From Spirochaetales bacterium (lineage in GTDB: Bacteria > Spirochaetota > Spirochaetia > SZUA-6 > JAFGRV01): a DNA stretch of 46,228 nucleotides. The notes beneath the pieces are model-generated. The model saw only the letters and a program-made list of their open reading frames with translations. It made no database searches and had not been told where the DNA came from. This document shows positions 5,763-43,400 of this stretch, in pieces. Within the stretch, counting starts at the first letter, position 1, and each line of letters starts with the position of its first letter. The position numbers and the translations under genes were made by a program. Location of the stretch: the NCBI GenBank assembly GCA_016930085.1, contig JAFGHO010000032.1:1-46228 (forward strand), in the 5' to 3' direction.

Positions 5763-7358
5763 CTACATGTTCCAGATTTCCTTGAACTGGTGGGGTTTTT
5801 CGCAATATTTACAGATATAGAAATCCGCCTTCAACCGGTAGAATTCCGGAATCGCATTTTCATGGTGTACGGGGTGGGAGATGCAATCCGGATTCGTACA
5901 CCCGATTTCCTCGAAATTATATACGCGGGGCGGCGCAAGAAGCCGGAGCTTCTTGATCACCCGCTGATGTTTGATAAAATTGAGTGTGCATCCCGGAGCG
6001 ATCGCCGCGAGTTTTTTTATCTTCTTCTCTTCGAAATCGACGACATCGACTTCGGGAAGAGAGACGATTCCTTTTGTGTCGTTGGTTTTGAGCGATTCGA
6101 ACACGCCGTGGGAACTGGGCATATTGAGATCGAGGATTTTTCGTATTTTGTAGATGTGATCCCAGATCGTGTCCACGTTGTCCCCCCGTCCGATATGATC
6201 GATGACGATTCCGTTTTCGATCGGTTTGATCCCGACTTTATATTCCGTTTTCGGCTGATCGTGAGGCTCGGCCTCTTTTATGAAATCATCCTGAAACCGA
6301 AGGGGTTCGGGGTGTTTGCCGGAAAAATCACGACCCAGTCTCCCGCCCAGCATACCGATAGCGATAATCCGGATAAAGTATCCGTTCAGTGCCTGCTCCT
6401 CCCATCCGTTCAACGGTGTATTGTCGAGAAAAAGCGGGACGGTGGGATGCTCGCGGTGCCGCGGGAGGGGATGATAGAAGCGGGTTTCCTCCGGAATCCG
6501 GTCGATAAATCCTCGTTGAAAGGTAACGGCATCCCGCAATATGTCACTCTTCTCGCGAACGTCTTCTCCCATCCGCTCGAGCTGCAGGCGGCTGAAATAC
6601 CAGATATTCGCGATACTGTCCTGCTTCAGATATTCTTCGATCGATGAAAAGGTACGGACTGCGAATTCGTTTTTTGCCATTTTTTCCGTATAGTGGGCGG
6701 GCATCTGGAGTTCTTCCGGGGCGATCAGATCCACGGTAACCTCATGGAAAATCCTCAAGCCGTCGGCTTTCGAGTGAACGGTTCTGCCGTGGAAAAGGTC
6801 CCCTAAAAGCGCGATATGAATAGAGTCCCTGTTCCAGTTCTTCTGTTCAAAGAAGGTATATTCATCCAGGAACTCCTGGGTGGGGTGTTCGTGCTTCCCG
6901 TCACCTCCGTTGATAAAAGAAGGTTTGGGCAGGTGATTCCGCTCCGCGTATTCGGCGAGGGTGGCCTCGAGCCATCTGCATACGCCTTCCAGTTTGGTTC
7001 GTACGATATAGATCGAATAATCGTTGTATCCGCAAAGCATTTTAAAGGTGTCCGAATAACTTTCCATTTTATTAAAGGAGGAATGACCGGGGTCGAGAAC
7101 GTTCAGCCGCGTGTTGTGAAACTCGGCGGCGTTCTTGAATGATTCTTTTGTTCGCGTGCTGTCTTCGAGAAAGATAATGTAGGTACCGATATTCTGATTG
7201 TTGATTTGAAACGATTCGAGTGTTTTTTTTGTACGAATGGCTTCTTTAAGTTCCTTTGTTTTCCGGTAAAGATACAGCTGCTCGTCGATGGAAAGATCAT
7301 TGACAACGGCGATGGTTCTTCCTTTAAACGGACCGTCTTCAAACGGTGGTCTCTTCAT
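5763..7358 (-). CDS. pyrBI: Aspartate carbamoyltransferase, fused catalytic (PyrB) and regulatory (PyrI) chains
   Basis: The 531-residue protein catalyses the first committed step of pyrimidine synthesis, carbamoyl phosphate plus aspartate to carbamoyl aspartate. The N-terminal 330 residues are PyrB-like, with the phosphate loop EDSTRTKESF (near 65-74), KHEHPTQEFLDEY (near 160), LGDLFHGRTVHS and PLPRHRE. The last 150 residues are PyrI-like, with an allosteric segment (IENGIVIDHIGRGD) and a zinc site, CTNPDC then CKYC. Such fusions are known from Thermotoga and some spirochaetes. AGGAG at 7370-7366 sits eight bases before the chosen ATG; an upstream GTG at 7391 would place this ribosome site inside the gene and is rejected. 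It is divergent from argF. Confidence 0.93.
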   Translation of the reverse strand: MKRPPFEDGPFKGRTIAVVNDLSIDEQLYLYRKTKELKEAIRTKKTLESFQINNQNIGTYIIFLEDSTRTKESFKNAAEFHNTRLNVLDPGHSSFNKMESYSDTFKMLCGYNDYSIYIVRTKLEGVCRWLEATLAEYAERNHLPKPSFINGGDGKHEHPTQEFLDEYTFFEQKNWNRDSIHIALLGDLFHGRTVHSKADGLRIFHEVTVDLIAPEELQMPAHYTEKMAKNEFAVRTFSSIEEYLKQDSIANIWYFSRLQLERMGEDVREKSDILRDAVTFQRGFIDRIPEETRFYHPLPRHREHPTVPLFLDNTPLNGWEEQALNGYFIRIIAIGMLGGRLGRDFSGKHPEPLRFQDDFIKEAEPHDQPKTEYKVGIKPIENGIVIDHIGRGDNVDTIWDHIYKIRKILDLNMPSSHGVFESLKTNDTKGIVSLPEVDVVDFEEKKIKKLAAIAPGCTLNFIKHQRVIKKLRLLAPPRVYNFEEIGCTNPDCISHPVHHENAIPEFYRLKADFYICKYCEKPHQFKEIWNM

Positions 7359-7418
7359 CGGCACACTCCTTTTTAAGGAAGAATCTCTCACGCGGTTTTC
7401 TCACATTCAGTCCGAAAG

Positions 7419-19558: not shown

Positions 19559-21388
19559 TCAACAAAAGGTTTCAACAAGCCCCACATAGTATTGCGCGAT
19601 AAGAAGGGCATCCACTATATTTATCACACCGTCGCAATTTGCATCCGCCCTGTCGAAAATGAAATTAGCCGGGTCCAGTCCGACATAATACTGCGCAACG
19701 AGGAGGGCATCCACGATATCGATATTCCCGTTGTCATTGACATCCCCCATCGCGGAGTGGGAAACCGGCCGGCTCTTCAGGATGATATGTGCAACGGAAA
19801 GCTTCGGGAGGGTACAAACAAACCGGTTCCCTGTTATCGAGGAAATCCCCGTACGTTTTGTAATCGAAGAGCCGGCGGAATCGAACGCCCATACTTCCCC
19901 GGAGGAGTAATCGATATTTCCGCTGATGGCAAAGATCGCATTCATGCTTTGATCGTAATTTTTATTGATCGCGATAATATGGAGTTCGGACTCATCACCG
20001 CTGAAATACGATGCGTAGACTGAACTGTCGCCCACATTGTTCGTCTCCGCCTTCACCGTTGTGTCCCCGAATGTGCCGTTATTACCGTCATAGTTTCTGT
20101 ATATTTTGAACGCCGCACTCGTATACCGGGTGGTATCCTCGAGTTGCCAGTAATTGGCGAGGTACACGCCGTATTTACCGAAAATGCCAAGGACATCGGC
20201 GGTCGCGATACCGCCTGAAACATGGTTTTCGCCGCCATAGCAGTATTCGGTGACCGCGCATTTCGTTCCCGGATAATATCCGTCGATCGACTGCTTTAGC
20301 CGGGGGATCAGGGGGAGAAAATCGGAAAACCATTCCCCGATCCAGCTGTCTTCCGTATAGGAAGGATCCCAGAGGCTTCGGGGGGCCTGAATACGGGCTT
20401 TGCACGTTTCATCGCTTCCCGCACCATTGAATACGATCCGCTGTCCTCCGCCCTGCGCTTCGGGATACCAGTGAACATCGAGGACGTCGAGCAGTCTTCT
20501 GCCGTCCGAATTGGAAGCGGCGCGCATTGAATCCAGATAATAGTCGATAAACCATTCGTAACCGCCGCGGACGGATTCCCAGTCGGGGGCGTCCTGAAAG
20601 CTGCTGAACGCGGCAAACCCGTAAAGAACGGGTCCCAGAAGTTCGGCTTCAGCATCCACATCCTTGACCGATTTAGCAAGGGCGACGGTTTTTTCGATTA
20701 TTTCACGGCACCCGGACTCATCGGGATGAATCCGGGGGTGGGTGGAAGGCCAGAGTGCGGGTTCATTGTCCAGGCAGTAGAACCGGATGCCCAAAGCACT
20801 CCCCGCGGGGCCGTTTTTGTTCACGAGAAAATTGACAAACTCGTCCATATACACATAATTGTCCCCGGTATCGGGATTGAGGGAAAAGGCCGATCCCTTT
20901 TTCGCTATTACCTCCTTCCATCTCGGCGACGGAGCCGTTTCGCTTTCCGCAACTTCTCCGTTTTTGTCCGCCGACACATAACCCGCCATCTGAAGCGTGA
21001 CAATTGTCGCACGGGCTTTTGTGACGTCTGCCTCACGGGCAACGGTCATGACAGCCGCCGGCGTCTCGAACATATTGTCCGGTACATCAAGCGAATCGCA
21101 AAGGTAATTGTCGCTGCTGTTGTGCCAGTCTTCACCCGCATTCGATGCATTGGTTTCCCAGTTATAGCCGGTTGTCCTGTTTCCGCCAATCCTCCGAACG
21201 GTCCAGTTTTCCGTTCCGGTAAGCAGCTGGTTTGTCCCGTAAATATAAGGACTGATCGGCTTGTTATCGGTTTCGGTATCGATGGTAAAGGTGACATCGA
21301 GTCCGAATGTACTCAGACAGATAAAAAGAAAAAGAAAAATAAGCCCGCAACGGAGTGTCTTTCCCCCAAAAAAAAGATACGATTGCAT
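19559..21388 (-). CDS. Secreted glycoside hydrolase family 44 (endoglucanase/xyloglucanase-like) with two dockerin-like repeats
   Basis: The 609-residue protein starts with a signal peptide (CGLIFLFLFICLSTFGLD). The catalytic domain (about 35-540) shows GH44 features: RRIGGNRTTGYNWETNASNA, YVSADKNG, FYCLDNEPALWPSTHPRIHP with the acid/base Glu, VLDVHWYPEA and VTEYCYGG with the nucleophile Glu. The end (about 550-609) holds two Ca-binding repeats, GDVNDNGNIDIVDALLVAQY and ADANCDGVINIVDALLIAQY, the pattern of type I dockerins. GH44 enzymes cut beta-1,4-glucans and xyloglucan. No cohesin or scaffoldin is in the window, so the repeats may anchor to other partners. GGAGG seven bases upstream sets the start. 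Confidence 0.9.
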   Translation of the reverse strand: MQSYLFFGGKTLRCGLIFLFLFICLSTFGLDVTFTIDTETDNKPISPYIYGTNQLLTGTENWTVRRIGGNRTTGYNWETNASNAGEDWHNSSDNYLCDSLDVPDNMFETPAAVMTVAREADVTKARATIVTLQMAGYVSADKNGEVAESETAPSPRWKEVIAKKGSAFSLNPDTGDNYVYMDEFVNFLVNKNGPAGSALGIRFYCLDNEPALWPSTHPRIHPDESGCREIIEKTVALAKSVKDVDAEAELLGPVLYGFAAFSSFQDAPDWESVRGGYEWFIDYYLDSMRAASNSDGRRLLDVLDVHWYPEAQGGGQRIVFNGAGSDETCKARIQAPRSLWDPSYTEDSWIGEWFSDFLPLIPRLKQSIDGYYPGTKCAVTEYCYGGENHVSGGIATADVLGIFGKYGVYLANYWQLEDTTRYTSAAFKIYRNYDGNNGTFGDTTVKAETNNVGDSSVYASYFSGDESELHIIAINKNYDQSMNAIFAISGNIDYSSGEVWAFDSAGSSITKRTGISSITGNRFVCTLPKLSVAHIILKSRPVSHSAMGDVNDNGNIDIVDALLVAQYYVGLDPANFIFDRADANCDGVINIVDALLIAQYYVGLVETFC

Positions 21389-24009: not shown

Positions 24010-25008
24010 ATGATAGCATTATGGTTTGTGAAAAACGTAATATTCATGCCTTTTATATTTCTGTTTGTCCTCATCGTTATATTTCTTCTTCTCACCTCGA
24101 TTCATGTGCTGAATCAGGTTCTCGCCGAACATATCGAGGCGGGCCAGATAACGATCGGGTTTATTCTTTCAGCGTTTCCGTTCGCTTTTCTCTACGCCCT
24201 TCCCGCATCCGTCCTTCTCGCCTACATCTTCATTTTTTTTAAAATGCTCAAGACACCGGGCTACAGATTCTTTACGGTTATTTTCGTCGCCGGTGCAGCG
24301 TTTGTCGTACTCGCGGCCGGGATGATCTTTTTTACCGCCATTACACCAAAAGGCCAATCGGAAAGAAAAACAGTCGAACAGATTATCCTTCCCGGAAAGT
24401 TCTATAATGCCGAAAAAGCGACGATCAATACAGGTGCCATCGACAACAACACACTCTCCAATACCCTCGTCTTCTCTCCGGGAAGCATGAGAACCCGTAT
24501 GGCATTTTACAGAAACGGTGTGGGCAGGATAAGCGGTAATATCATCAGACTGAGTTTATCCGGTGACGGCAGAGAAATGATTTCTCTGCCGGTCGGGAAC
24601 CCGTACCGGAGTGCCGGATCGAATGATTTTTTTACCAGTGAGTTTTTTTCCGCGTACGGAGATTTTGTACGTGACCTGATCCAGCTCGTCGTATCGGGAG
24701 GAATCGGGTTCTACATCTACTGTTTTGCATTTTCATTCTTTTTCATGACCACAGGTGTTTTCATGAGAATATCGAAATGGCCCCTCTTTAATCTCTGTTT
24801 CATGTTTTTTATCATAACCGGTGTCTTTTTTCTCTACAGGCTTTACAAAAATATCCTGCTCATCGAACTGGATAAACTCATGAAAGGGATAACGCTATCA
24901 TCAATGGTTCCGGCCGTTGCCTTGATTATTACCGGCGCGCTCCTCTTTCTCATCGACATACTCTTTATACCGGCGGGATTCGAAAAAAAGGAAACCGCAG
25001 GTGCTTAG
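24010..25008 (+). CDS. LptF/LptG-like six-helix permease subunit
   Basis: The 332-residue membrane protein has three N-terminal helices (about 8-32, 50-75, 82-108), a beta-rich extracytoplasmic domain (about 110-215) and three C-terminal helices (about 220-250, 255-280, 298-322). This order and size match LptF/LptG (YjgP/YjgQ) permeases, which pull lipids from the inner membrane with an ABC ATPase (LptB). The PASVLLAYIFIFFKMLKTPGY stretch in helices 2-3 parallels the conserved LptF/G segment. Sequence similarity elsewhere is too weak to be sure. Its stop overlaps the start of the next gene by 8 bp, so the two are probably made together. No LptB-like ATPase is in the window. It is divergent from hppA. 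Confidence 0.55.
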   Translation: MIALWFVKNVIFMPFIFLFVLIVIFLLLTSIHVLNQVLAEHIEAGQITIGFILSAFPFAFLYALPASVLLAYIFIFFKMLKTPGYRFFTVIFVAGAAFVVLAAGMIFFTAITPKGQSERKTVEQIILPGKFYNAEKATINTGAIDNNTLSNTLVFSPGSMRTRMAFYRNGVGRISGNIIRLSLSGDGREMISLPVGNPYRSAGSNDFFTSEFFSAYGDFVRDLIQLVVSGGIGFYIYCFAFSFFFMTTGVFMRISKWPLFNLCFMFFIITGVFFLYRLYKNILLIELDKLMKGITLSSMVPAVALIITGALLFLIDILFIPAGFEKKETAGA

Positions 25009-26842
25009 ATCGAGTTTGAACAAAGTCGTTCCAATTTTACTCGTCACCTATCTTGTCAGCTATCTGGGGTTGTTCCTCTTCTGTCTCATCTTCCCGCCGC
25101 CCGACCTTCTTCCCTATTTCCGTCTCGATACCGCGGCAAAAAGCGGTCTCGACCTTTTTATCGAATACCTTATTCCCATTCATGCAACGGGAGTCCTCAT
25201 TGCCTATTCGCTTTTCGTCGAATTTGCCGCGATCGGTATCGGGAAACGTTCCGGTATCCACAGGATCGTCACGTCTGTCATCATCTTTTTTATCATCATA
25301 TCCATGATATATGCGGCGATCATCATATGGGTTCAGCCTGCCGTCATCACCGGCATTAATGAAAACAGATCCAAAAGCATGCTGTCACAACGTTATTACG
25401 AACAGGCGGAACAGGCAACGATTGACGCGGATAAAGCCACAGGAGACGAGAGAGAACGGCTTTACCGGAGCGCCTTTCTATATATCGACTCGTCTCTCTC
25501 CATCAATCCGGAATACAAACCCGCACAGGAACTTGAAAGGAAAATCAGGCGCGTTATTTCAAACGAAGAAATACCGCTTACAGAAAGCGGGCATCATGAA
25601 AAGGCGGAGCAGGAGGATCAGGGGAAAGCCCGTATCGAAGGACTCGATGCCGACGGTCTTATGGAAAACGCAAACAGAATGTACGCAAAAGAGGATTATT
25701 ATTCCGCTTACTATTACGCCTCAATGGCCTTTCGGCTTGACAACACAAGGGTTGATGCAAAAAATATGATCGTTACATCAATGGAAAAGATAAAATCATA
25801 CGATCTGTCCGGGGAAGATGAAAGAATCCGGAGTCTGTATTTGAAAAAACAGGAAGGATACGAGAAACTGGCAAGCGGGGAGTTCATATCGGCATACTAT
25901 CTGTTCAAGGAATTACATGAGGAGTACCCGGCCGATCAGGACGCAAGCGATTACCTGGCAAAAATCGAAGGGGAATTTCTCGATAAACTCGCTTTCTTCT
26001 ATGAAGAATTGGAACATCTCGACCTTCTTGTCGGTGTCCGGGATATCCTCTTTTCCAATCAGATTGATGAAACGGAAGCCGAGTATGTTTCCGTCGAAAA
26101 AATGGTCCGTGTCGATGAGGGGATATATTTCTTTAATACCGAGGTGATGCGCGTTTCCCCTTCCGGAACCATCCTGAGTCATTATCTGGCCCCCTACGGC
26201 AAGTATATGTTTGTCGATACCTCGATGCTTTCGGGCGGAAAGGAAAAAAAGCGGTCCAGCCACCATATTAATTTCAACTGTATCTATAAAAACTCACCGG
26301 TTCGGGGAAGCGGCCTCAGGCAGGGAACGGATCTGCTTCCCGTCTATTTCATTCAATCGAAAAAAGAAGGGAATGAACTCAAAAACATACTCCCGCTTTC
26401 GCCCGACATCAGCCTGTTCAAGAATTTCAGATCGACGCCGGACAATCTCCGGGAAACGGGACTGCTGGAACTCCTTTCAATTGCATTCAATCGGGAATAC
26501 GAAAAGGCGGGTTATTCGATAAAAACGGTCGATGCTGAAATTGTGACAAGATGCATGTTACCCTTTCTCTTCATCGTATTTTCCCTCTTCGCGATCGCAT
26601 TGGGCTGGGCGTGCCGTTCCCGTTATGAAGATCGTCCGTCATTGTTTACCATGATCTTTATCCCCGTATTCCCCATTGTCGTCACACTTTTCATCCGGTT
26701 TTTCATGACGGGTATGATGACGCTCTTTGATTTTTTCACGCTCATCTTCCCCCTTCTCGTATCGCTAGCGGTCTGCATCGCCATCCAGTTTATCTTCATC
26801 TTTGCCGGGCTGATCGTTATCGCGGGGAAACTCACCGATTGA
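25001..26842 (+). CDS. LptF/LptG-like permease subunit with TPR-like periplasmic insertion
   Basis: The 613-residue protein begins at a GTG that overlaps the stop of the preceding gene. It repeats the same plan: three helices at the N-terminus (about 6-34, 55-85, 87-115) and three at the C-terminus (about 525-550, 558-580, 585-610). About 400 residues lie between them. The first part of this region holds helical TPR-like repeats (YYEQAEQAT; LMENANRMYAKEDYYSAYYY; EGYEKLASGEFISAYYLFKE). The second part is beta-rich (VEKMVRVDEGIYFFNTEVMRV), as in the jelly-roll of LptF/G. A partner of the upstream gene in a lipid or lipoprotein export complex is inferred. I know of no named family with this insertion. 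Confidence 0.55.
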   Translation: MLRSSLNKVVPILLVTYLVSYLGLFLFCLIFPPPDLLPYFRLDTAAKSGLDLFIEYLIPIHATGVLIAYSLFVEFAAIGIGKRSGIHRIVTSVIIFFIIISMIYAAIIIWVQPAVITGINENRSKSMLSQRYYEQAEQATIDADKATGDERERLYRSAFLYIDSSLSINPEYKPAQELERKIRRVISNEEIPLTESGHHEKAEQEDQGKARIEGLDADGLMENANRMYAKEDYYSAYYYASMAFRLDNTRVDAKNMIVTSMEKIKSYDLSGEDERIRSLYLKKQEGYEKLASGEFISAYYLFKELHEEYPADQDASDYLAKIEGEFLDKLAFFYEELEHLDLLVGVRDILFSNQIDETEAEYVSVEKMVRVDEGIYFFNTEVMRVSPSGTILSHYLAPYGKYMFVDTSMLSGGKEKKRSSHHINFNCIYKNSPVRGSGLRQGTDLLPVYFIQSKKEGNELKNILPLSPDISLFKNFRSTPDNLRETGLLELLSIAFNREYEKAGYSIKTVDAEIVTRCMLPFLFIVFSLFAIALGWACRSRYEDRPSLFTMIFIPVFPIVVTLFIRFFMTGMMTLFDFFTLIFPLLVSLAVCIAIQFIFIFAGLIVIAGKLTD

Positions 26843-37319: not shown

Positions 37320-40300
37320 ATGAAAAAATGTATCCTGGCCGTCCTGCTGGCCGCCGTCCTTTGTTCCACCTGCATCGAAACACAGATAAAAAAAGACACC
37401 GGTAACGATTCCGGCGTCACGGAGAATCTTTCGGGCTGGGAGAAGATAGCGCAGCTGCGGGAAAAGGGACTCATGGCGTCAATACTGAAAGAACTGGATG
37501 TCCTCTATACGAAGGCAAAAAAAGAAAAAGACGAGCTCGAACTCATTAAGATACTCATATACAGGCTGCCGTATGAATTGTTCTCAAGCGATTACGCATA
37601 TAAAGAGATCATCGAAAACCTCGAACGAGAAATCGGAGAAATAAAGGAACCGGCAGCCTCGATCCTGAAATCGATTCTCGCAGAATATTACTTCAGCTAC
37701 TTCCGGCGTTTTTCATATCAATTTTCCTACAGAACGGAAACCTTCGGTATCGAGGAAGACGATATCGAAACCTGGAATGCGGCAGCCTTCGGCAATAAGA
37801 TTACCGGTCTTTATCTCGATTCGCTTGAAAACGAAAAGCTGCTTGAGAAAAAGAAAATGGACGCATTTAGCGACATACTCGAAGAGGGAAACTCGCGGGA
37901 CATCCGGCCCACCCTCTACGATTTTCTCGCTTACAGGGCCCTCGATTTTTTCACGAGCGGGATGGTCTTCAGTTTCACGCCTCCGGCCGGGACCTTCGCG
38001 TTCGACGATCCCCGTTTGTTCGGGAGTCCGAAGGAGTTTTTGTCCCTGAAGATACCGATTGAAGACACCTCACCGATAACACTCCATGCCCTGCGTCTCC
38101 TCCAGAAGCTGACCGCCTTTCATCTCAAGGATAAAAAGCCCGAAGCCCTCATTCACCTCGATCTGAAACGCCTCGACTTCGTGAGAACGCAGGCGGCCGG
38201 ACCGGACAAGGACAAACACTATGAAAGCGCCCTCGAAAAGCTCGAATCCGCATACCGGAAGCACCCTTCGTACGGACTCGTTTCATACCGCCTGGCACGA
38301 TTATACAGGGAAAAGGGCAGCCGCTATCGTCCGGCAGTCTCGGACGAGCATCGCATGGATATTAAAAAGGCGTACGAAATCTGTGAAAGCGTGATCGAAC
38401 GTTTTCCCGGCACCGAAGGGGCGGCGGACTGCCTCGCACTCCGCTCGTCGATTCTGGAAAAGTCGCTCGACTTCTCCATTGAAAAAGCGAACCTTCCGGA
38501 GAAACCCTTCCGCGCGCTTCTCCGTTTCAAAAACATCGAAAAGGTTTATTTCCGCGCCGTTCCGCTCGAAAGCCCGATGCGTGAAACGATCGGGGAAATA
38601 CGGCGCACAGAGGGTTATGACGCGGCTTTCGACAGTTACCTGACATTGCCCGCCCGTAAAGCGTGGGCGGTCGATATTCCCGATACAGGGGATTTCCAGC
38701 CGCACAAGGCAGAGACGGCAATACCGGGCCTTGCGAAGGGATACTACGTCATCCTCGCCTCGGCAAACGAGGATTTTTCCACAGCCGGCAACGCAATCTC
38801 CTATTCCCCGGTCTGGATCACCGAAATCTCGTTTCTCAAGTGCGACGAATGGACGGAGGGAAACGGGCGCTATTACGCGGCGCACCGGGAAACGGGCCGG
38901 CCGCTTGCGGGGATAACGGTCGACATCATCGAACCAAAGTGGAATTCCATGACACAAAAATATACGCGCACACAGGCCGAACGATACACGACGGATAAAA
39001 ACGGTTTATTTTCAGTGAAAAAGGGATTCGAACGCGATTACCTGATATCCTTTACCTCGAAAGACGATGCACTCCTTTTCGACGACGAGTTTTACCAGTA
39101 CCCGCCGCCGGACTACGAGGAAAACCCGCTTGCGACCTACTTTATCACCGACAGGTCGATCTACAGGCCCGGCCAGACGATCTATTTCAAAGGCATCGTC
39201 ATACGCCACCTGGAAAACGGGGGCGACCGGCTGAAAACCGAAGCGCGACACAAGACAATTGTCGTATTCCATGACGTCAATTCGAAAGAGATAAGCAAGC
39301 TGAATCTGGAAACGAACGAGTACGGTTCGTTCAGCGGCTCCTTCGTCGCGCCGATTGACCGGCTTACCGGAAGCATGTCGATAACGAACGAATCCGGTTC
39401 CGTCACCTTATCCGTCGAGGAATACAAGCGGCCGGGCTTCGAGGTCTCCATGGCCCCCCCGCAGGGAAGCGTCACGCTGGGGAAAGAGGTGACGGTGACG
39501 GGAACGGCGCGCGCCTTCTCCGGCTACGGAATTGCCGATGCGGCCGTACGCTTCCGCGTGGTGCGGAACGCCTCGTATCCCTACCGGTGGTGGGGGTACC
39601 GGGGCTATTATCATCCTTCACCCGAGACGGAAATAAGGCACGGAACGGCAACGACGGATATCGCCGGAACCTTCACGATAGGGTTTACCGCCGCCCCCGA
39701 TCCTTCCGTCCCGGAAGAAGAGCTTCCCGTCTTCAGCTACACGGTCTACGCCGATGTCACGGATACGACCGGGGAGACCCATTCGAACAGCATAACGGTG
39801 AGATCAGGCTATGTGTCGCTCGACCTCTCGATCGACGTGCCCGAACACCTCGAAAGGGAACAACCCCGCGAGTTTCCGATCAAAAGCCGGAATCTCGACG
39901 GTGTCTTTATCCCGGCTTCGGGAACGGTCGCCATTACGCGGCTCGCACCGCCCGGGAGGGAGTTCAGGGAGCGGCTCTGGGAACGGCCGGATATCTTTCT
40001 CATGGACCGCGAATCCTTTTACGCGGCATTCCCCAATGACGTCTACGACGATGAAAACGAACCCCGCACATGGAAAAGGGAAGAACGCGTTTATTCTGGA
40101 AAATTCGACACGGCGAAACACCGGTCGCTCGAACTTGAAAACATCTCGGGGTGGAAGGGGGGGATGTATCTGCTCGAAATGGCGTCCGCGGACACCTCGG
40201 GAAGGAAGATCACCGTCGAGCGTTACTTCACCCTCTCATCCGGAAAGGCCGCCCCGCTTCCCGTTCCCGAAACGCTCCGCATACGCCCGGTCACCGAAAC

Positions 40301-43300
40301 GTGCAGGCCCGGAGACGACATCGAGTTCGAAATCGGTACGACGGAAACCGGCGTGTCCGTGACATACGAAATTTCCCACAAGGCCCGTATCGTCGAACAC
40401 AAGGCCCTCGTCATCGACAATGAAACAAGGACCGTCCGCTTTCCGGTAAAAGAGGACCACCGGGGCATGCTCAATGTCCACGTCATCGGTATCCGGCACA
40501 ACAGGGCATACACGGTCAACTATCCGGTGTTCGTGGACTGGGACAATGACGACATCGGCATCGAATTCGAGACATTCAGGGACACCCTCCTCCCCGGTGC
40601 AAAGGAGGAATGGCGGCTGAAACTCTCCGGCCCGAAGGGCGAAGCGGCCGCCGCAGAAATGGCCGCGACCCTCTACGACGCCTCGCTCGATTCCTTTCTT
40701 CCCCATGCATGGCCGAATACCTTTCTTCCGCAATTGTACGCGGCAAAATACTGGGAGGGGGATGTTTCATTCGCCCCCCTTTCATCCCGCACCGTCGAAT
40801 GGAACTGGAATATATACGAGGAAGGGTACAACCGCACCTATGACAGACTCAAATTCCTGGATGAATCGATGTCCGCCTCTTTTCAGTACGCCGTGGCACG
40901 GAGTTCAATCTCCATGGTTCCCGAAGTTGCCGATACGTTTCTGAAAGAAGAAAGCGAGGCATTGCCGCCTTCGCCCGGGATATCCACGGACAAGACGGCG
41001 GACGGCAGGGACGGGGCGCCCCGGAAAGACACCGGTACCGGCCCCGGCACGCCCTTCGCCGATATCGATATCCGCACCAACCTGAACGAGACCGCTTTTT
41101 TCTTTCCCCACCTGAAAACGGACAAAGACGGAAGGATCGTTATCGCCTTCACCATGCCCGAAGCGCTGACGCGGTGGAAAATGATCGGTTTCGCGCATAC
41201 GAAAACGATGTCATACGGGTATATCGAAAAGGAAACGGTCACGAAAAAGGACCTCATGATCTCACCGAACGCCCCCAGGTTTTTCAGGGAAGGGGACCGC
41301 ATCGCCTTTGCCGCGAAAGTGACCAACCTTTCTGAAAAAAAACTTTCCGGAAAAGCCGCCCTCATGTTGTTCGACGCCTTCTCGATGAAACCGGTCGATG
41401 CCGTTTTCAAAAACACCAATGCGTCCGTCCCGTTTACCGTGGACAAGGAACAGAGCGTGCCGGTTTCGTGGGACATCGAGATCCCGGAGAGTATTCAAGC
41501 CGTCACCTACCGGCTCACGGCGCGGGCGGGCGATTTTACGGACGGGGAGGAGTCGACCCTGCCCGTTCTCCCGAACAGGATGCTCGTCACCGAAGCCTTA
41601 CCCCTGCCGATAAAGGGAAAGCAGACGAAAACATTCGGGTTTGAAAAACTCGCCGCCTCCGGCGCTTCGAAAACGCTCAGGCACCACCGCCTCACCCTCG
41701 AATTCACCTCGAACCCGGCCTGGTACGCGGTCCAGGCATTGCCCTATCTGATGGAATTCCCCCACGAGTGCGCGGAACAGATCGCAAGCAGGTATTACGC
41801 CAACAGTCTCGCCGCGCATATCATCGGTCTCAATCCCAAAATAAAAAAGGTCTTCGATGCATGGGGGGACGGCGGGTCGAACATTTCGAACCTTGAAAAA
41901 AACGAGGACCTGAAATCCCTTCTCCTCAGGGAGACACCATGGGTCCTTCAGGCGCAGGACGAAACGGAACGGAAAAAGCGGGTCGCCCTGCTTTTCGACA
42001 TCAACCGCTTGGCGCGGGAAAACGGCATCGCGTTCGGGAAACTCATGGACATGCAGGCCCCGAACGGCGGGTGGCCGTGGTTTTCCGGACTTCCCGAAGA
42101 CAGGTACATCACCCAGCATATCGTCGCGCTCACGGGCCACCTGGACAAACTCGGCGTGAAAAGCGCCCGCGTGGATGACCGTGTGCGGAACACGATCGCG
42201 AGGGCGCTCGATTTTCTCGATAAGGCGATGCAGACCGATTACGACCGGTTGAAAAAATCCGGGACCGATCCCGAAAAACATCATCCCGGTTACCTTATGA
42301 TCCATTACCTCTACGCGCGGAGCTTTTTCCCGGATGCGGCGGTAGAGGAGCACCGCCGCGAGGCGTTCGACTACTGGAAAACGCAGGCGGGGCGTTACTG
42401 GAACGAGTACGGCCCCTACCTCAAAGCCATGACAGGGCTCGCGCTTTACCGCTTCGGGGAGAAAACGATACCGGAAGCGATCATCCGGTCCCTGAAAGAA
42501 AGCGCGATCGTCTCCGAAGAAACGGGCATGTACTGGAGCGTCCCCCCGGGTTATTACTGGTATCAGGCCAGGATCGAGACACAGGCCCTCCTCATCGAGG
42601 CGTTCAGCGACATCGCGGGCGACAGGGAAGCGGTGGATGAAATGCAGGTGTGGCTTCTCAAGCAGAAACAGACCCAGGACTGGAAGACGACAAAGGCGAC
42701 CGCGGAAGCGTGCTACGCCCTTCTCATGCAGGGAAGCGATCTTCTCTCCGACAATGAGGCGGTCGGAATCACCCTGGGCACGACAACAATCGACCCGCGC
42801 GCCATGGAAGCCGCGAAGCCCGAGGCGGGCACCGGCTATTTCAGGACATCATGGGGGCCGGGTGAAATAAAGCCCGACATGGGAAAGGTCACCGTGGAAA
42901 AAAAGACCGGCGGGGTCGCATGGGGCGCCCTTTACTGGCAATATTTCGAGGAACTCGACAAAATTACGCCTTATAAAACGCCCCTCGGCCTCGAAAAGAC
43001 CCTCACCCTCACCGTCGATACGGAGAAGGGCCGGATTCTCAAGCCGGTTAAAAAAACAACCGTCCTTTCGACCGGCGACCTCCTCACGGTTCGGATCGTG
43101 CTCAGGGTCGACCGGGACATGGAATACGTGCACATGAAAGACATGCGCGCCGCGGCCCTGGAACCGGTGAACGCCAACTCCGGCTACCGCTATCGGGACG
43201 GGCTGTGGTACTACGAAAGCATCAAGGACGCAACGGTCGATTTCTTCTTTCCCCGCCTTGTCAGGGGAACCTATGTTTTCGAGTACCCGCTCAGGATCAC

Positions 43301-43400
43301 CCAGCGGGGGAATTTCGCCAACGGGATCACGACGATCCAATGTATGTACGCCCCGGAGTTCACCTCGCATTCGGAAGGGGTGAGGATCGGGGTGGAGTAG
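37320..43400 (+). CDS. Alpha-2-macroglobulin family lipoprotein with thioester motif
   Basis: Bacterial alpha-2-macroglobulins are envelope-anchored protease traps. The 2,026-residue protein begins with KKCILAVLLAAVLCSTC, a relaxed lipoprotein signal. Residues 30-400 form a helical, TPR-like N-terminal region. Macroglobulin domains follow, with FITDRSIYRPGQTIYFKG (MG2, near 608-625), the bait-region-like low-complexity stretch around 1195-1240 (GISTDKTADGRDG; DTGTGPGTP) and the A2M core PEALTRWKMIGFAHTKTMSY near 1280. The thioester Cys-Ala-Glu-Gln is at 1484-1487 (ECAEQIASRYY) in an alpha/alpha toroid, so covalent trapping is predicted. The receptor-binding-like end closes the chain. GGGGAGG seven bases upstream sets the ATG. 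The usual proteobacterial partner pbpC is not adjacent. Part of its 3' region is duplicated at 44445-44637. Confidence 0.93.
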   Translation: MKKCILAVLLAAVLCSTCIETQIKKDTGNDSGVTENLSGWEKIAQLREKGLMASILKELDVLYTKAKKEKDELELIKILIYRLPYELFSSDYAYKEIIENLEREIGEIKEPAASILKSILAEYYFSYFRRFSYQFSYRTETFGIEEDDIETWNAAAFGNKITGLYLDSLENEKLLEKKKMDAFSDILEEGNSRDIRPTLYDFLAYRALDFFTSGMVFSFTPPAGTFAFDDPRLFGSPKEFLSLKIPIEDTSPITLHALRLLQKLTAFHLKDKKPEALIHLDLKRLDFVRTQAAGPDKDKHYESALEKLESAYRKHPSYGLVSYRLARLYREKGSRYRPAVSDEHRMDIKKAYEICESVIERFPGTEGAADCLALRSSILEKSLDFSIEKANLPEKPFRALLRFKNIEKVYFRAVPLESPMRETIGEIRRTEGYDAAFDSYLTLPARKAWAVDIPDTGDFQPHKAETAIPGLAKGYYVILASANEDFSTAGNAISYSPVWITEISFLKCDEWTEGNGRYYAAHRETGRPLAGITVDIIEPKWNSMTQKYTRTQAERYTTDKNGLFSVKKGFERDYLISFTSKDDALLFDDEFYQYPPPDYEENPLATYFITDRSIYRPGQTIYFKGIVIRHLENGGDRLKTEARHKTIVVFHDVNSKEISKLNLETNEYGSFSGSFVAPIDRLTGSMSITNESGSVTLSVEEYKRPGFEVSMAPPQGSVTLGKEVTVTGTARAFSGYGIADAAVRFRVVRNASYPYRWWGYRGYYHPSPETEIRHGTATTDIAGTFTIGFTAAPDPSVPEEELPVFSYTVYADVTDTTGETHSNSITVRSGYVSLDLSIDVPEHLEREQPREFPIKSRNLDGVFIPASGTVAITRLAPPGREFRERLWERPDIFLMDRESFYAAFPNDVYDDENEPRTWKREERVYSGKFDTAKHRSLELENISGWKGGMYLLEMASADTSGRKITVERYFTLSSGKAAPLPVPETLRIRPVTETCRPGDDIEFEIGTTETGVSVTYEISHKARIVEHKALVIDNETRTVRFPVKEDHRGMLNVHVIGIRHNRAYTVNYPVFVDWDNDDIGIEFETFRDTLLPGAKEEWRLKLSGPKGEAAAAEMAATLYDASLDSFLPHAWPNTFLPQLYAAKYWEGDVSFAPLSSRTVEWNWNIYEEGYNRTYDRLKFLDESMSASFQYAVARSSISMVPEVADTFLKEESEALPPSPGISTDKTADGRDGAPRKDTGTGPGTPFADIDIRTNLNETAFFFPHLKTDKDGRIVIAFTMPEALTRWKMIGFAHTKTMSYGYIEKETVTKKDLMISPNAPRFFREGDRIAFAAKVTNLSEKKLSGKAALMLFDAFSMKPVDAVFKNTNASVPFTVDKEQSVPVSWDIEIPESIQAVTYRLTARAGDFTDGEESTLPVLPNRMLVTEALPLPIKGKQTKTFGFEKLAASGASKTLRHHRLTLEFTSNPAWYAVQALPYLMEFPHECAEQIASRYYANSLAAHIIGLNPKIKKVFDAWGDGGSNISNLEKNEDLKSLLLRETPWVLQAQDETERKKRVALLFDINRLARENGIAFGKLMDMQAPNGGWPWFSGLPEDRYITQHIVALTGHLDKLGVKSARVDDRVRNTIARALDFLDKAMQTDYDRLKKSGTDPEKHHPGYLMIHYLYARSFFPDAAVEEHRREAFDYWKTQAGRYWNEYGPYLKAMTGLALYRFGEKTIPEAIIRSLKESAIVSEETGMYWSVPPGYYWYQARIETQALLIEAFSDIAGDREAVDEMQVWLLKQKQTQDWKTTKATAEACYALLMQGSDLLSDNEAVGITLGTTTIDPRAMEAAKPEAGTGYFRTSWGPGEIKPDMGKVTVEKKTGGVAWGALYWQYFEELDKITPYKTPLGLEKTLTLTVDTEKGRILKPVKKTTVLSTGDLLTVRIVLRVDRDMEYVHMKDMRAAALEPVNANSGYRYRDGLWYYESIKDATVDFFFPRLVRGTYVFEYPLRITQRGNFANGITTIQCMYAPEFTSHSEGVRIGVE

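Follow-up and report, generated by a model that had tools for sequence, protein, structure and literature searches.

The window, that is the whole stretch of 46,228 nucleotides analyzed here from a Spirochaetales bacterium, contains two overlapping genes on the forward strand, which share 8 bases and both encode membrane proteins. Their parts were delimited on AlphaFold2 (AF2) models and, where stated, by alignment:

24010..25008, + strand: gene 1 (332 aa, ATG start), LptF/G-like membrane protein without insertion
24013..24132, + strand: gene 1 TM1 (residues 2-41), AF2 model
24154..24252, + strand: gene 1 TM2 (49-81), AF2 model
24253..24264, + strand: gene 1 TM2-TM3 loop of four residues, at the site of the LptB coupling helix of LptF/G, AF2 model and hhalign
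24265..24342, + strand: gene 1 TM3 (86-111), AF2 model
24400..24591, + strand: gene 1 periplasmic beta domain (131-194), AF2 model
24628..24966, + strand: gene 1 TM4-TM6 (207-319), AF2 model
24766..24792, + strand: gene 1 cytosolic TM4-TM5 turn, R-x-[ST]-[RK]-W-P-L-x-N, homologue alignment
25001..26842, + strand: gene 2 (613 aa, GTG start), LptG-like membrane protein with TPR insertion
25010..25216, + strand: gene 2 TM1-TM2 (4-72), AF2 model
25217..25246, + strand: gene 2 TM2-TM3 loop (73-82), no coupling helix, AF2 model and conservation
25247..25435, + strand: gene 2 TM3 and its long helical continuation (83-145), periplasmic by topology, AF2 model
25442..25990, + strand: gene 2 periplasmic TPR domain (148-330), AF2 model, VIA-align and family profile
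26036..26398, + strand: gene 2 beta domain (346-466), AF2 model
26519..26836, + strand: gene 2 TM4-TM6 (507-612), AF2 model

Three other features of the window were seen by eye. At 19559-21388 (- strand) lies a 609-aa secreted enzyme-like protein with two terminal dockerin-like repeats (DVNDNGNIDIVDALLVAQYYVGL ... DANCDGVINIVDALLIAQYYVGL), which is unusual in a spirochaete. A 542-aa ORF at 5763-7391 (- strand) resembles aspartate carbamoyltransferase fused to a regulatory chain that carries a cysteine zinc site at its C-terminus, and 37320-43400 (+ strand) encodes a candidate alpha-2-macroglobulin-like lipoprotein of 2026 aa.

The AlphaFold2 models, calculated from alignments of 41 homologues for protein 1 and 55 for protein 2, reached a mean pLDDT of 89.5 and 87.5, respectively. 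Both show three transmembrane helices, a beta domain and again three transmembrane helices. This is the plan of LptF and LptG that had been proposed from the sequence alone, and structure comparison confirmed it. In Foldseek searches against the PDB, ranks 1-12 for protein 1 were all LptF/LptG chains, and for protein 2 ranks 1-6 were LptG chains, with TPR proteins making up most of the next rows. With VIA-align protein 1 reached Z 14.2 at an rmsd of 9.1, and Z 14.1 at an rmsd of 3.8 for 6s8g_G, the best unrelated row having Z 7.4; protein 2 aligned to LptG (6mjp_G) with Z 19.2 over 336/354 residues at an rmsd of 4.8, and the next unrelated row was a TPR match with Z 10.5.

At the level of sequence profiles, protein 1 has no match to Pfam LptF_LptG (PF03739) and protein 2 stays below its gathering score (24.5 vs 27.9 bits). 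One gene 2 orthologue scores 29.5 bits, and the profile matches 32 of the 55 members of the protein 2 family at E<=0.01 (best 1e-11). The matching stretch of gene 2 (residues 467-594) overlaps TM4-TM6. When the protein 2 family profile was compared with PDB sequences, TPR proteins were found with E 1.9e-27 and LptG (8frl_G) with E 1.2e-5, and profile-profile comparison with canonical spirochaete LptF/G gave P values of 3.3e-6 for protein 1 and 5.7e-7 for protein 2. The anatomy of both proteins, the LptF/G fold as well as the TPR domain, is well supported. The two proteins resemble each other only weakly in hhalign (probability 11.6), and for this reason neither is labelled LptF or LptG here.

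In gene 2 TM3 runs on as a 63-residue helix, which is followed by the TPR domain at about 148-330 and then by the beta domain. According to the positive-inside rule both the TPR and the beta domains are predicted to be periplasmic. The insertion of TPR-like helices before the beta domain noticed by the sequence-only reading is thus real and lies in the periplasm, but with some 215 residues it is smaller than the roughly 250 assumed. Among 15 segments compared, conservation in gene 2 is highest in TPR-b/c and TM4, and the two residues that are invariant over the 55 homologues, K283 and D312, are both located inside the TPR domain. In the gene 1 family the most conserved segment is the cytosolic TM4-TM5 turn, with the tryptophan present in 40/41 and the asparagine in 38/41 sequences; the turn is a possible cytosolic binding site.

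The two genes form a conserved pair. Of 82 spirochaete loci whose upstream sequence is complete, about 80 have them side by side, with a median gap of -1 base; in 67 of these the neighbour was recognized by its profile, in 11 it is a multi-TM ORF scoring under the threshold, and 2 were decided manually. A few of the genomes enter this count twice. Because it recurs this often, the two-gene arrangement is not due to chance, and the paired arrangement noticed by the sequence-only reading is borne out. The pair is near-universal in the sampled genomes of the class Spirochaetia. The exceptions to adjacency are two Brachyspira-like genomes. In this family (f47) weak full-length gene 2 homologues occur without gene 1 (L198:8816-10537 and L199:8261-9985), and a 148-aa ORF lies upstream in place of gene 1 at both loci.

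In small Borrelia-like genomes the pair is found between a lipoprotein-like gene and a CarD gene, downstream of pyruvate kinase. From this synteny and the B31 gene order, we take gene 1 and gene 2 to be the orthologues of BB0354 and BB0353, respectively. A functional description of the pair was not found in the open-access literature searched. In the papers covered by this search, BB0353 and BB0354 are listed only as hypothetical proteins (PMC6711536).

In LptF and LptG a coupling helix binds the ATPase LptB. Its glutamate and glycine are the only absolutely conserved residues of LptFG, and the motif is essential for LptB binding (PMC5082905). The corresponding E-x7-G between TM2 and TM3 was present in 12/12 canonical spirochaete LptF/G, versus 1/41 members of the protein 1 family and 3/55 of the protein 2 family. 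No coupling helix is seen between TM2 and TM3 in the model of either protein. The hhalign alignment of protein 1 with canonical LptF/G has a gap of 8 columns at exactly this site, and in gene 2 conservation among the 15 segments is lowest in the TM2-TM3 loop (0.192 vs a mean of 0.401). Because the LptB-docking helix is missing from both families, an ATP-driven extractor of the LptFG type is not supported. An ABC gene did not stand out among the identified conserved neighbours of the pair either, and the idea of a further lptFG pair that brings along an ATPase was rejected on this ground. Together these two observations weaken the proposal of the sequence-only reading that the pair extracts lipids or lipoproteins in the manner of LptFG.

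As one half of what would speak against it, the same reading had named canonical lptF and lptG elsewhere in the genome, and these were indeed found at G000:C83:61600-63917 (E 4.9e-72 and 1.4e-79). Hence the pair at this locus is a second, divergent LptFG-like pair. A search for LptB in this genome gave one match above the cut-off, located on another contig (C100), and 79 further weaker ABC matches. LptA/LptD_N (PF03968), which belongs to the remaining part of the canonical bridge, had no match in the genome. Across Spirochaetota, PF03739 matches were present in 222 of 247 genomes, generally two or more per genome. LpxC was found in none of the sampled genomes of the class Spirochaetia, including the genome of this locus, which agrees with the earlier remark that many spirochaetes lack LPS. 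The distribution of the pair therefore does not track lipid A, and a linkage to this pathway was rejected.

The strongest functional correlate of the pair is the presence of flagella and not a lipid pathway. The presence of the pair was scored by the protein 2 family, in 247 genomes plus further members of the class, and flagellin by PF00669. Among 155 genomes of the class Spirochaetia scored for both, flagellin and the pair family occur together in 125, neither occurs in 25, flagellin alone in 5 and the family alone in none; this tally was made by hand, and the further genomes scored for flagellin were chosen by the pair result and not at random. Accordingly 125/130 flagellated genomes carry the pair, and all 25 flagellin-less genomes, belonging to families f3, f8, f9, f14, f16 and f22, are without it. 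The contrast is also seen within families. In f3, G020 keeps both genes and G006 and G011 of the same genus are without both; in f16, genus g80 and the genome G282 have both and genus g27 has neither. The independent losses were counted by taxonomy, and canonical LptFG served as the sole non-flagellar control family. It was kept in all 17 flagellin-less genomes searched (of 25). In the 1.2 of 2.23 Mb read of the flagellin-less genome G265 of family f14 the pair was not found, and canonical LptF/G and murA were.

Flagellin without the pair occurs in G098 (1,139,633 bp, T. pallidum-like), in G031 and G056 (both f12), and in G045 and G050. Because of these five genomes the pair cannot be a universal part of the flagellum. 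The flagellar association of the pair is new here and the co-loss is a correlation; lineages without flagella may have lost much else, cell shape included.

The conserved neighbours that were identified encode a response regulator, a PspA-like protein, a STAS-domain protein, a DnaJ-TerB protein and MurA. In many loci murA lies tail-to-tail downstream of the pair, and the PspA-like gene is nearby in several genomes. In the Treponema-like G261 (L191:7916-18558) the pair divergently adjoins an operon with fliK-like, flgD, flgE, motA, motB, fliL and fliM genes. Among the genomes inspected such an operon was seen beside the pair only here, and adjacency to it was therefore rejected as a general feature. 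In the T. pallidum-like genome G098 a CDP-alcohol phosphatidyltransferase gene is oriented divergently to the fliK-like gene. A 593-aa ORF of this genome was considered as a homologue of the pair and rejected, as its weak match (E 0.48) covers TPR positions only.

Taking the evidence together, we infer that the pair does not pump lipids with ATP and acts as a platform for the TPR domain. The reading we prefer, with a probability of roughly 0.4, is an inner-membrane platform derived from LptFG and uncoupled from the ATPase, which displays the TPR domain for the work of periplasmic flagella or related tasks in the envelope. The two proteins would presumably pair as a heterodimer derived from LptF/LptG, in which the coupling helices for LptB docking were lost, a TPR domain was acquired on the periplasmic side and ATP-driven lipid pumping was abandoned. 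The long TM3 helix and the beta domains would position this TPR domain above the membrane, where it could bind a periplasmic partner that is needed in the presence of periplasmic flagella, with a role for example in the assembly of motor or collar or in the fit of the envelope to the flagella. If this is true, the membrane fold of an ABC transporter, without the contact to its motor and equipped with a protein-binding domain, would be a transporter turned scaffold.

A rather less probable alternative is that the pair is an envelope or shape factor, which handles lipid, lipoprotein or cell-wall material for elongated spiral cells and was lost with the flagella as shape and envelope changed. An LptF/G fold with its beta domain suits the handling of lipids, murA as conserved neighbour and the PspA-like gene in several genomes point in the same direction, and the T. 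pallidum-like genome has flagellin without the pair. However, the loss tracks flagellin also inside f3 and f16, and canonical LptFG, which is the known exporter of envelope lipids, is kept.

It is unlikely that the pair is a second ATP-driven extractor, which would be coupled through a different contact to canonical LptB or some other ABC ATPase and export glycolipids or lipoproteins. Borrelia has no LPS, and the authors of a study on its Lpt proteins knew of no system that brings its lipoproteins or glycolipids to the cell surface (PMC10353723); the LptF/G fold, the gene pairing, and the single LptB above the cut-off next to the 79 weaker ABC matches fit it as well. Against it stand the coupling motif missing in both families, with a short and unconserved loop in gene 2, the lack of an ABC gene among the identified conserved neighbours, and the flagellin-less genomes, which keep canonical LptFG but not the pair. 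Least probable is a role as chaperone or secretion aid, with flagellar proteins of the periplasm (e.g., FlaA) or lipoproteins as the clients that the TPR domain would bind on leaving Sec: the periplasmic TPR domain as the best conserved soluble part and the co-distribution with flagella agree with it, but the retained LptF/G membrane and beta fold is left unexplained and the client role is putative.

Within the preferred reading of a TPR platform, a more specific and quite improbable proposal is that the pair (BB0353/BB0354) supplies an inner-membrane component still missing from the flagellar collar, so that the fold of a retired lipid transporter would serve as a motor anchor. The collar proteins of the spirochaete motor include periplasmic TPR proteins (PMC8609358, PMC11750108). 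A cryo-ET study of 2025 reported that large densities in the collar are unassigned; one of these adjoins a region with apparent contact to the inner membrane, for which a transmembrane or lipidated protein was suggested (PMC11750108). On the present hypothesis the pair would fill this density. The absence of the pair from flagellum-less spirochaetes turns two defined, little-studied genes into a concrete prediction for proteins that fill unassigned periplasmic parts of the motor.

Among the known systems nearest to the pair are LptF/LptG of LptB2FG (PF03739), with which it shares the order of three TM helices, beta domain and three TM helices, the adjacent genes, the profile match in the C-terminal part of gene 2 and the top positions of LptF/G chains in fold searches of the PDB. 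It differs from them in the lack of the E-x7-G coupling helix, in the TPR insertion in one subunit, in the presence of a canonical pair in parallel, in the absence of lipid A genes, and in a distribution that tracks flagellin. The Lpt system of Borrelia (BB0464-0466, BB0807/0808, BB0838) likewise represents an LptFG fold in a spirochaete without LPS; there LptF/G are BB0807/0808, and BB0353 and BB0354 are not mentioned in the text of the paper (PMC10353723). With the collar proteins FlcA, FlcB, FlcC, FlcD and FlbB the likeness lies in the periplasmic TPR (FlcA, FlcB); FlcA also has a transmembrane helix and the complex is specific for spirochaetes, but none of these proteins is described with an LptF/G fold (PMC8609358, PMC11750108). 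By its predicted topology gene 2 combines this fold with a feature of the collar type, a TPR domain in the periplasm with an inner-membrane anchor.
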